35,194 nt of DNA from a virus. The notes under the pieces were generated by a model, which saw nothing but the letters and a program-made list of their open reading frames with translations, searched no databases and was not told the DNA's origin. Of the stretch, positions 4,808 to 29,077 are shown in pieces (the stretch's first letter is position 1; the number at the start of each line of letters is the position of its first letter). Made by a program: the position numbers and the translations under genes. The stretch spans positions 1 through 35,194 of IMG/VR virus record IMGVR_UViG_3300034104_004962; one strand, given 5' to 3'.

Positions 4808-5179
4808 TCAAGTACAATTATTCCTTCTTGGACGATAAGAGAATAAGTTAGTTGGTGGTTCTGGTTTCATCCATTCTTCAATCTTATCAAATCTTTCTTC
4901 ACTATAAAAATCTTGCTGAACATACCACAGTTTCCAGTGCTCATGCCCCTTAGACTGATTACAATCATGACAGCAGCATACTACGTTTTTTGTAACGTCT
5001 GCACCACCTTTTGACTGAGGAAGAATGTGATCAATTGTGAGTCTCTCCTCCGACCCACAATAAGCACATTGATGATTCCATTGTTCTTTTATATGTTGCC
5101 TCCACAATCGTTTCGCCTCCCCAGAACTTGTTGCTTGTAACTGAAACAAGTATTCTTTTGGAGAGTGTAGAGGTCCCAT
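4808..5179 (-). CDS. HNH endonuclease, 123 aa
   Basis: The centre carries a complete HNH nuclease module: CAYCGSEERLTIDHILPQS supplies the first zinc pair (CxxC) and the catalytic DH, followed by GGAD..KNVVCCCHDCNQSKG, which supplies the asparagine, the second cysteine pair and the final N-x-x-K-G. It is about the usual length for a free-standing phage HNH protein. The N-terminus (about 30 residues) is helical and basic. It lies between a small cysteine-containing gene and the structural genes, so it could be a homing endonuclease sitting in an intergenic site or a packaging-type HNH accessory; the sequence does not decide. All metal and catalytic residues look intact. Confidence 0.9.
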   Translation of the reverse strand: MGPLHSPKEYLFQLQATSSGEAKRLWRQHIKEQWNHQCAYCGSEERLTIDHILPQSKGGADVTKNVVCCCHDCNQSKGHEHWKLWYVQQDFYSEERFDKIEEWMKPEPPTNLFSYRPRRNNCT

Positions 5180-5649: not shown

Positions 5650-5758
5650 TATCTAAAGTCTTTTGATTATTATAAGATACTTGTGGTTTTCTGTAAAGGT
5701 TTGGAAAGGTATCCCTGATAATTTCTGCGAGTTTATGTGGAGTTTCAGAACTAATCAT
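5618..5758 (-). CDS. Small hypothetical protein, 46 aa
   Basis: ATG at 5758 forms an ATGA overlap with the stop of the phosphoesterase gene upstream, which is the main support for translation. The product starts MISSETPHKLAEIIRDTFPN and ends in a basic tail (CNRK). The first part looks like one amphipathic helix. Its last 32 bases overlap the start of the 90-residue gene in another frame, and the -10 box of that gene's promoter lies within it. No function recognised. Confidence 0.5.
   Translation of the reverse strand: MISSETPHKLAEIIRDTFPNLYRKPQVSYNNQKTLDNERILDCNRK
5669..5697 (-). promoter_or_regulatory. Sigma70-type promoter
   Basis: On the minus strand, TTTACA (-35) and a perfect TATAAT (-10) are separated by 17 bases, about 20 bases before the ATG of the 90-residue gene. 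The -35 box deviates from consensus at one position. Confidence 0.6.
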
Positions 5759-6462
5759 TTATATTTTTCAAGTGAGTAAATTCCATTTTTTTCCACAATC
5801 GCAGAGCAAGTATCCACAAAGTCTCCACAACACATATAAGTGATTTTACCAAAGTTGCGAATATTTGCAGAATGTATATGCCCACAAATCACACCAGAAT
5901 ACTTCTTATCTCTTTGAGCACAGTAAGAAGCAATATCAGTCTCATATTGATTGATATAATTTTTTCCTCTTACACTATTCTTCAAGGCATAGACTAATGA
6001 GAATTTGAAAACTCTTTCCAACCACAAACTCAATGGTGTGATAATTTCATAACCCTTGTTGAATACTAATTGTTTCCAAGACCCAGAAGAATATTCGGAA
6101 TACTTATCTCCATGAACACAGAGAAACTTATTTCCATTTGTGTCTTCGTGAATATACTCATCAACCATTCGAAAGTTCTTATGTTTGAAATCACAATACC
6201 GACGAATCTGTCCTTCGTGATTTCCAAGAATGTAAACAACTTCTGTGCCTTTCTTAGCGAGATTTAGAAGTTGATGGACACACTCCGTATGTTCTTTTGT
6301 CCAACGAGTATTATATTTTTCCATACAGTAGATGTCTATAATATCACCTACCATTACTAACTTTTTAGTTTTTAGATTTTTGATGAAATTATAGAATCTT
6401 TCTGTATCACATCGTGGTGTTCCTAGATGAACATCAGAAATAAAAACTGTATCGTAAGTCAT
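5755..6462 (-). CDS. Calcineurin-like metallophosphoesterase, LpxH-type, 235 aa
   Basis: The ordered motifs of the calcineurin-like phosphoesterase fold are all present: ISDVHLG near the N-terminus, VGDIIDIY, LGNHEG, CVHGDKY and VICGHIHSA. These supply the Asp, His and Asn residues of a dinuclear metal site. Spacing and wording (SDVHLGTPRCD, GNHEGQIRRY, GHIHSA..R) resemble UDP-2,3-diacylglucosamine hydrolases of the LpxH family and their uncharacterised relatives. I chose ATG 6462, which begins MTYDTVFISDVHLG, over an upstream TTG at 6468 that would overlap the preceding stop. Substrate is not proven; a role in lipid A or nucleotide metabolism, or in general phosphodiester cleavage, are options. 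Confidence 0.8.
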   Translation of the reverse strand: MTYDTVFISDVHLGTPRCDTERFYNFIKNLKTKKLVMVGDIIDIYCMEKYNTRWTKEHTECVHQLLNLAKKGTEVVYILGNHEGQIRRYCDFKHKNFRMVDEYIHEDTNGNKFLCVHGDKYSEYSSGSWKQLVFNKGYEIITPLSLWLERVFKFSLVYALKNSVRGKNYINQYETDIASYCAQRDKKYSGVICGHIHSANIRNFGKITYMCCGDFVDTCSAIVEKNGIYSLEKYK

Positions 6463-6464
6463 AA

Positions 6465-6626
6465 TCAATATCTTGATGGCGTATACTCAAGATCTCCAAG
6501 AATGTCTTCTAACATTTCTCCATATTCTTTAAATCTTTTGTCACCAGCAATAAAACATCTTTGACGCATCCATACAGCATCGGCAAGAAGTTTTACTTGG
6601 TCTTCTGTAAGTGTTATGGTTTTCAT
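6465..6626 (-). CDS. Small hypothetical protein, 53 aa
   Basis: The frame runs from ATG 6626 (MKTITLTEDQVKLLADAV) to TGA 6465. The predicted product is largely helical and ends GDLEYTPSRY. The stop is two bases before the phosphoesterase ATG, consistent with an operon. The MKTITLTEDQ.. opening is a common look among small cyanophage early proteins, but I cannot name a function. Confidence 0.6.
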   Translation of the reverse strand: MKTITLTEDQVKLLADAVWMRQRCFIAGDKRFKEYGEMLEDILGDLEYTPSRY

Positions 6627-6753: not shown

Positions 6754-6888
6754 TTAACTTTGTCCTCGTGAATAGACAGGTTGTAAAATACCCCCATCTT
6801 GATCATCGTCATTATCGTGATCCTCATTGAGAATCACAATCAGAGCAAATACAAAGAGAACCAAGTATAGAATATACTGTATGGTCAT
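6754..6888 (-). CDS. Small membrane protein with acidic segment, 44 aa
   Basis: ATG 6888 overlaps the stop of the homing-endonuclease-like gene (ATGA). The first 20 residues (MTIQYILYLVLFVFALIVIL) form one membrane helix. An acidic stretch follows (NEDHDNDDDQDGG), then a short polar tail. A terminator follows directly. Topology suggests a small inner-membrane peptide with an acidic tail; function unknown. Confidence 0.6.
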   Translation of the reverse strand: MTIQYILYLVLFVFALIVILNEDHDNDDDQDGGILQPVYSRGQS

Positions 6889-7469
6889 AATGGGTTTCCT
6901 TTTTGTGAATAAGATTTAAGATTTTCTACTAGTATTTGAAGTTCTTGTAGGGAAGCGTCTGATTTAATCCAGTTTGCTCTTGAAGATATAACCCAAATAT
7001 TGTCTGGGGTATATCCTTTTCCTGGTTCTTTTTGGTCTAAACTTGGATTTCTTGGATCTCTTTTATTATTAGTTGATACAAGAGGTATTCCCAATAGAGG
7101 ACAGGTTTCTGGAATAATAATATCATCTATAGTTATATTGAAAGGAATACCCTTTCTCTTTGCTCTGTGTTGAGCATTATGAAACATATTGTATCTTCTG
7201 TCATCCTCTTTTTTTGAACCAGGTGGTTTTATTTTAGTTTTATTGAAAGCAATAGTAGTTTCTCTTCTAACGCAACCACAACTTGTAGTAGACCCAGATA
7301 CAAGTCCGTATCTTTCACACACTTTATTACCCCCACACTCACATTCACAAGTTGCATATACTCTACTTTTACCACTTTTAAAAATAACTTCTTCTTTTAA
7401 GACAGTAAGTTTACCAAACTTCTGTCCAACTAAAGCACCGCAAGGTTTTGATTTACTATTTAATCCCAT
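6885..7469 (-). CDS. Free-standing homing-endonuclease-like protein, 194 aa
   Basis: Residues about 10-70 form a cysteine-rich DNA-binding module: VGQKFGKLTVL, then CECECGG, then a segment ending TTSCGCVRRE. This arrangement is typical of the N-terminal zinc module of phage homing endonucleases. The C-terminal part has ETCPLLGIPL, PSLDQKEPGKGYTPDNIWVIS and RANWIKSDA, a motif series known from Vsr/PD-(D/E)XK-like phage homing nucleases and their EDxHD relatives. It sits directly 3' of psbD and 2 kb from an intron-split psbA. The free-standing nuclease F-CphI of cyanophages, which targets the psbA intron site, is a natural comparison. Activity and target are inferred. A T4-type late motif precedes it. 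Confidence 0.75.
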   Translation of the reverse strand: MGLNSKSKPCGALVGQKFGKLTVLKEEVIFKSGKSRVYATCECECGGNKVCERYGLVSGSTTSCGCVRRETTIAFNKTKIKPPGSKKEDDRRYNMFHNAQHRAKRKGIPFNITIDDIIIPETCPLLGIPLVSTNNKRDPRNPSLDQKEPGKGYTPDNIWVISSRANWIKSDASLQELQILVENLKSYSQKGNPL

Positions 7470-8776: not shown

Positions 8777-9085
8777 CTATTTCTTTTCACCCCTATCTCT
8801 ATTTTCAAGTTCTCTAAATCTACTATCAACAGGGTCGTGAGTTCTCATTTTAGTTTTCATTTTCTTTATCTGTGGTGATATTTTTTCAATTTTTCTTTTT
8901 ACCATATTTTTCAATCTTTCACCACTCTCTCCTTTATGAGAAGGTTGATTTTCTCTCCTAAAATCCATAGCATCTTGTGCTGCTCTGGATTTCTTTTTTA
9001 TCTTCCTCAACATCTTTTCTCTTGGAAGTGGTTGGAGACCTTCAACCAACTCACACTCTAGTACAAACTCTCTAAAAGTTTTCAT
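8777..9085 (-). CDS. Small highly basic protein between psbA and psbD, 102 aa
   Basis: The N-terminus MKTFREFVLECEL resembles the short leader shared by many small T4-like cyanophage proteins, often virion or prohead associated. The remainder is extremely rich in Lys, Arg and Glu (for example MLRKIKKKSRAAQDAMDF and MVKRKIEKISPQIKKMK) and is likely helical, with possible nucleic-acid or capsid binding. A T4-type late motif (9106-9113) stands just upstream and a terminator just downstream, so it is its own late transcription unit lodged between the two photosystem genes. I do not recognise a function. Confidence 0.7.
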   Translation of the reverse strand: MKTFREFVLECELVEGLQPLPREKMLRKIKKKSRAAQDAMDFRRENQPSHKGESGERLKNMVKRKIEKISPQIKKMKTKMRTHDPVDSRFRELENRDRGEKK

Positions 9086-10806: not shown

Positions 10807-10940
10807 TCCAGGGGGAACTGGATAATACGTTATTCCCACAGCACCCTCCACTGTGGGTATGAGAGACGTAATTTATACTCCCCATAGGTCTCGGTTAGTG
10901 AGAGTTTACAATGTTACGAATTATTAGGAATCCGTAACAT
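10807..10940 (-). promoter_or_regulatory. Structured psbA leader with three hairpins and a late-promoter-like motif
   Basis: The leader between promoter and psbA holds three inverted repeats: 10911-10940 (8-bp stem ATGTTACG), 10835-10857 (7-bp stem CCCACAG, whose nine-base loop contains GGAGGG) and 10807-10822 (5-bp stem TCCAG). A T4-late-like TATAAATT lies at 10870-10877 between them. Directly before the psbA ATG I see no good ribosome-binding site, so the purine-rich loop and hairpins may control translation or mRNA stability. Inferred only from sequence. Confidence 0.5.
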
Positions 10941-28951: not shown

Positions 28952-29077
28952 TTACATGCACGCCAAGTTATTTTTTTTAACTAGGTAATAACTAAATCCT
29001 AGGCGGGGTAACCCCATCCGCACCACCAATCCTTTGAAGAGAGATTGGAAACTCAATGGGTCTTTTGACTCCACCAC
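28952..29077 (-). CDS. Doubtful small ORF, 41 aa
   Basis: GTG 29077 directly follows the stop of the 84-residue gene (TAGGTG) and opens a 41-codon frame: VVESKDPLSFQSLFKGLVVR and so on, ending NNLACM. The last part is coded over an AGTTATT inverted repeat. A second frame of the same DNA reads VKRPIEFPISLQRIGGADGV followed by TPPRI and a stop, but lacks a start. Neither is convincing. This 190-base gap otherwise holds only the promoter and terminator of the glycan cluster. Confidence 0.25.
   Translation of the reverse strand: MVESKDPLSFQSLFKGLVVRMGLPRLGFSYYLVKKNNLACM

Follow-up and report, generated by a model that had tools for sequence, protein, structure and literature searches.

The gene that directly follows psbD in a DNA of 35,194 nucleotides from a virus that infects photosynthetic bacteria (IMG/VR record IMGVR_UViG_3300034104_004962, positions 1 to 35,194; hereafter the window) is probably a homing element of the psbD 3' end that brings a replacement tail with it, as judged by sequence comparison. 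This reading draws on the position of the gene, its presence or absence at one site, displaced psbD ends, a divergent psbD tail in carriers, the grouping of these tails by nuclease type and a predicted PacI-like fold. Phages often carry free-standing homing genes; to our knowledge, how a carrier spares its own neighbor gene from cutting is known in few cases.

Table 1. Features of the psbD-nuclease region of the window
Feature	Positions	Strand	Remark
psbD (D2)	8626-7562	-	Putative host gene and target
Last 50 psbD codons (305-354)	7714-7565	-	Divergent tail; would arrive with the element and resist the nuclease
Terminator-like hairpin	7557-7534	-	Between psbD and the nuclease gene
TATAAATA	7502-7495	-	T4-late-promoter-like; ahead of the nuclease gene, after the terminator-like hairpin
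Nuclease gene, 194 aa	7469-6885	-	Cys-rich N-terminal module and PacI-like HNH C-terminal domain (D145, Y153, N157, N166)
Last six nuclease codons (K-G-N-P-L-stop)	6902-6885	-	Read as a decayed, displaced old psbD 3' end (R-G-N-A-L-stop)
44-aa ORF	6888-6754	-	Its ATG overlaps the nuclease stop codon
Second terminator-like hairpin	6745-6721	-	Same kind as found immediately behind psbD in many alleles that lack the nuclease

The nuclease open reading frame (ORF) starts with an ATG 92 nt downstream of the psbD stop codon; the cysteine pairs C43/C45 and C64/C66 and the PSLD...GYTPDNIWVIS block were both confirmed in it. Across 44 aligned nuclease sequences, 13 residues were invariant (C123, P124, P142, D145, G152, Y153, N157, W159, S162, N166, K169, A172, and E176) and four cysteines were kept in at least 90%. 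The protein matched the PHROG "endonuclease" phrog_3322 (E = 1.6e-31) and also phrog_1035, labeled "endonuclease VII" (4e-18). Pfam returned no family for it, NCBIfam nothing useful, and PDB no match with the single sequence as the query. Since relatives were encoded at 74 loci in viral_contigs, phrog_3322 was matched and cultured phage S-SKS1 has a relative, the ORF is not a chance one.

At 60% identity or more, 35 loci were retained; the psbD end is present in 31 of them, each with the relative directly behind psbD and the match beginning 93 to 152 nt behind it. The remaining four contigs (L004, L029, L030, and L034) start inside or just before the nuclease gene. The S-SKS1 relative, 48.6% identical across 90% of the query, is also directly behind psbD, and psbA is uninterrupted in this phage. 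S-SKS1 (a carrier) and S-PM2 (a non-carrier), both recorded on Synechococcus WH7803, make a cultured test pair. Loci were added via the LpxH-like gene, psbD and a psbD-end pattern, giving 230 psbD ends in 348 loci; with identical ends collapsed, 162 were unique (33 carriers and 129 non-carriers). The nuclease is scattered at random over the psbD phylogeny: 19 state changes were counted on a tree of the upstream part of psbD (111 rows), and shuffled labels gave a mean of 19.5 (range, 16 to 21). No tandem nuclease genes were found behind psbD in the loci examined. A broken relative of the nuclease (L066:8001-8478) precedes a split psbA at a distance from psbD. The original prediction of a nuclease-like gene with a zinc module and an SLD...GYTPDNIWVIS motif behind psbD thus holds, given its conservation and its phrog_3322 match, and its free-standing, homing-endonuclease-like character is supported by presence or absence at one site (33 of 162 unique psbD ends). 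TATAAATA, which resembles the T4 late promoter consensus, stands between psbD and the nuclease gene in 32 of the 33 carriers and within the first 120 nt behind psbD in none of the 129 non-carriers.

Several other features of the window were recorded. An HNH_5 gene (123 aa, 4808-5179) has relatives whose position between psbD and the baseplate genes varies from locus to locus, which would suit a gene that moves independently. The LpxH-like metallophosphoesterase gene (5755-6468; Pfam Metallophos, 6e-13) is widespread in cyanophage contigs. A 102-aa ORF between psbA and psbD (8777-9085) had no family match and no relative in the loci examined. PhotoRC-II RNA lies ahead of psbA (10822-10916) and wcaG RNA at 28952-29056. 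Long repetitive reading frames at the window start (11-643) may be a collagen-like gene read on its reverse strand.

psbD is uninterrupted in the window. Identity between carrier and non-carrier psbD drops from about codon 305, with little drop upstream. The tail-minus-upstream identity averaged -0.091 in 27 carriers and -0.029 in 103 non-carriers (p = 2e-10). Because non-carriers had been chosen partly by likeness to the psbD of the window, this comparison was repeated against narrower controls. Tail divergence was again found in the psbD-anchored sample alone (8 versus 61; DNA, p = 0.005; amino acids, p = 6e-5), against the nearest non-carrier of each carrier (p = 5e-6) and against non-carriers with the same downstream neighbors (13 versus 32; p = 2e-4). 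Exceptions were carriers with little tail divergence (L003, L178, L213, and L298) and non-carriers with much of it (L096, L106, and L198). With 28 carriers assigned by eye to four types from their nuclease N-termini, similarity among psbD tails was higher within a type than across types (p = 0.0018; control with upstream psbD, p = 0.37). Correlations between psbD 5' and 3' distances were low in carriers (0.25) and in non-carriers (0.12), and the stop codon type (TGA/TAA) did not differ as a marker (26/7 in carriers, 99/30 in non-carriers). Non-carriers with a carrier-like terminator (defined by a loose pattern) were considered as element losses, which tail divergence did not support, as it was no greater in them (p = 0.41).

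Old psbD ends were found displaced behind the nuclease. Across the 348 loci, exact copies coding for the 10-residue psbD C-terminus outside psbD were found only behind nuclease-family genes, two further matches at contig edges being read as psbD. An in-frame psbD C-terminus serves as the nuclease C-terminus in L029/L287, L213/L250, L298, L327, and L252, and in L206/L242/L332 the displaced C-terminus follows a small ORF (a slash joins loci that are the same contig or near-identical). Behind the displaced end of L213, L252, and L206 come TGATATACT and a terminator context, as after psbD in nuclease-free alleles. A wider search found L274, in which psbD codons 327 to 354 are duplicated, with the nuclease gene between the fragment and full-length psbD. 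A psbD fragment (codons ~327 to 354) also lies behind psbD in L260 (1571-1654) with no nuclease relative between, possibly the fossil of a lost element.

A displaced 3' fragment behind the nuclease is thus present in several carriers, and in the window only in a decayed form. The last 18 nt of its nuclease gene match the psbD end of nuclease-free L205 at 13 of 18 positions, a modest match, since 5 of the window's 1,529 18-mers that end in TGA score this high. Beyond the nuclease stop, the next 130 nt agree with L191 and L205 at 115 of 130 positions without gaps, and relatives of the 44-aa ORF overlap the psbD stop codon in nuclease-free L179, L191, L205, and L237. From the 44-aa ORF and this flanking match to nuclease-free loci, it follows that the nuclease gene of the window stands where the old psbD end used to be. 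L001 is like the window, with a decayed psbD-end copy followed by an ORF that elsewhere abuts psbD. Displaced ends and carrier tail divergence together support psbD as a candidate target, one of those originally proposed.

These data could also describe an ordinary free-standing homing endonuclease that stands beside psbD by chance and cuts psbD or its flank (SegF/SegG-like), with divergent tails due to co-conversion or neighbor divergence and no organized tail-replacing unit. The mobile distribution on the psbD tree would fit such a gene, as would right-hand junctions that vary and in some loci lie beyond the old terminator (L002, L020, and L031) and a weak correlation between nuclease and tail similarity (Mantel r = 0.14, p = 0.07, not significant). 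However, displaced psbD ends occur in several distinct arrangements and tails sort by nuclease type, which argues for duplication and replacement of the psbD end itself; we therefore regard the ordinary alternative as unlikely, though the strongest of those weighed.

The nature of the protein was addressed by structure prediction. An AlphaFold2 model (from 42 window and locus rows) had a mean pLDDT of 86.5 and a beta-beta-alpha unit at residues 142 to 171. PacI was the first Foldseek match (probability, 0.98, but E = 0.11) and the first row of a VIA comparison (Z = 7.0 over 90 residues, next row 5.2; a Z below 8 can reflect merely a common arrangement). It was also the sole match in a profile search of PDB sequences (E = 0.074, weak), with 18% identity to the nuclease over 90 residues. 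The profile alignment pairs PacI D92-R93, Y100, and N113 (numbers counted from the alignment) with nuclease D145-Q146, Y153, and N166. The usual HNH histidine is missing from the nuclease family, in which Q, R, or K stands after D145; PacI has Arg at the position after the Asp in the alignment. According to passages of PMC4081073, Tyr replaces His as the general base in PacI; in the passages retrieved from PMC5304195, nothing on the PacI catalytic residue was found. The three comparisons are each weak alone and jointly point one way, to PacI as the nearest relative of the predicted fold. PacI (3LDY) and the PacI-like HNH genes of Skunavirus phages (as described in part of PMC12724721) would share the beta-beta-alpha-metal fold and the D-R...GY...N-IK pattern with the predicted nuclease; PacI is a restriction enzyme, and the gene here a putative homing-type one.

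The missing histidine would also suit a non-catalytic DNA-binding or anti-sigma protein (Srd-like or sigma70-decoy-like) kept behind psbD for regulation, and of 42 family members, 21 have a match to phrog_1400 (Srd) and 13 to phrog_4592 (sigma70 decoy). All 42 match endonuclease families, however, with far better E values (best, 7e-39 versus 8.5e-11); the D and N, which resemble metal ligands, are invariant, and the nearest fold uses Tyr for His. Gene distribution and psbD-end duplications are moreover those of a mobile element, and a regulatory role alone appears improbable. As part of the family matches the Srd PHROG, some members may have lost catalysis.

The original prediction further proposed collaborative homing with the psbA introns in the style of F-CphI. 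Within the window, psbA is interrupted by two group I introns, with a 16-nt exon between them (exon 1, 10781-9787; 16-nt exon, 9532-9517; exon 3, 9307-9236), and scripted splicing gave a 360-aa D1. No stop-to-stop frame in the two introns exceeds 48 codons, which bears out the claim that neither encodes a nuclease. Across loci, psbA has three intron sites within 16 nt (a, between GTGAT and GCATG; b, the S-PM2 site; c, between AACGCT and CACAAC), and multi-intron psbA was also seen in S-SRM01 (L078) and S-CBWM1 (L079).

Besides the split psbA of the window, some association spoke for such a partnership: in the psbD-anchored subset, the nuclease was commoner with split psbA (4 split/2 intact versus 5/44; Fisher p = 0.005). 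Across all unique loci, p was 0.07, and phylogenetically independent pairs were not significant (median p, 0.63). Among unique carriers with readable psbA (n = 18), 12 had it uninterrupted and 6 split (non-carriers, n = 70: 61 and 9); in 12 of 18 carriers, a nuclease with intronless psbA as its target would attack its own genome, so psbA is very probably not the partner. The psbA insertion region had no extra divergence in carriers (11 versus 47 non-carriers, p = 0.18).

F-CphI of cyanophage S-PM2, as described in part of PMC6083498, is likewise encoded by a free-standing gene within the psbA-psbD region, in T4-like cyanophages, but it belongs to another family with other residues, targets psbA at an intron site and has its gene behind psbA rather than psbD. 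The same passages give its residues as DHHRN type (CX2-4C...DHxH...R...CX2C-N, the endonuclease VII motif). The phrog_1035 "endonuclease VII" label alone cannot set the nuclease apart from F-CphI or other DHHRN enzymes. Kinship with F-CphI was rejected on the alignment originally called for (BLASTP E = 6.2), and DHHRN membership was rejected because the family has a single C123, Q, R, or K after D145 and no DHxH. Orthologues of F-CphI (at least 70% identity) were present at 11 of 25 split-psbA loci versus 1 of 100 unsplit ones, with intron sites classed by simple patterns, nine loci unclassed and the window excluded from the rows; these, rather than the nuclease, track psbA introns (loci listed: L076, L078, L089, L112, L121, L123, L142, L166, and L186). 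Uninterrupted psbA in most carriers, an unaltered psbA site and the absence of kinship with F-CphI leave collaborative homing with psbA introns very improbable.

We return to the homing element of the psbD 3' end. The nuclease would cut the nuclease-free psbD of co-infecting phages near the 3' end; we infer cleavage, its exact site and the resistance of the carrier from the patterns above. Repair from the carrier during mixed infection would then import a psbD tail (the last 50 or so codons) that is divergent and resists cutting, together with the terminator, promoter and nuclease gene. The old psbD end of the recipient would be pushed behind the nuclease gene, where it may become the last nuclease codons and then decay.

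A similar course is proposed for WHO elements at yeast FBA1 in parts of PMC7282813: at each integration the gene would be cut, its 3' end replaced by a resistant one and the old end displaced. According to these parts, WHO elements (Torulaspora/Lachancea) likewise have a nuclease gene immediately behind a conserved one, a target 3' part that diverges between carriers and non-carriers and displaced 3' fragments behind the nuclease. They differ in being yeast elements with an intein-zinc-finger protein, whereas the psbD element is a phage one with a predicted PacI-like HNH protein, and cleavage is demonstrated for WHO6 (PMC7282813, in part) but predicted for the psbD element. Unlike in WHO, the displaced end can become the nuclease C-terminus, and no tandem nuclease clusters were found. 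Membership in the WHO protein family (LAGLIDADG intein-like plus zinc finger) was rejected: the nuclease had no Pfam match, it matched HNH/endonuclease VII PHROGs and its predicted domain is a beta-beta-alpha HNH one. Mobile ORFs of fungal mitochondria that replace a C-terminus (Allomyces atp6; Glomus atp6, atp9, cox2, and nad3), in the passages of PMC3630166, likewise show a foreign, divergent in-frame C-terminus, the endonuclease ORF next and the native C-terminus displaced downstream; these differ in their mitochondrial location and their LAGLIDADG or GIY-YIG enzymes. Among the matches listed for open-licence literature, no phage case of such an end-replacing homing element was found.

On balance, we favor a phage counterpart of the WHO principle: a selfish nuclease with a self-resistant psbD end would repeatedly rewrite the C-terminus of viral D2 while spreading, the displaced host-gene end serving as its own C-terminus and stop codon, in a natural "home-and-rescue" drive with a His-less, PacI-type HNH homing enzyme as its engine. 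The answer to self-protection may then be visible in the sequence, in that the element brings its own resistant gene end. If true, this would extend to viruses a mechanism described in fungi and would account for the rapid C-terminal change in a viral photosystem protein.
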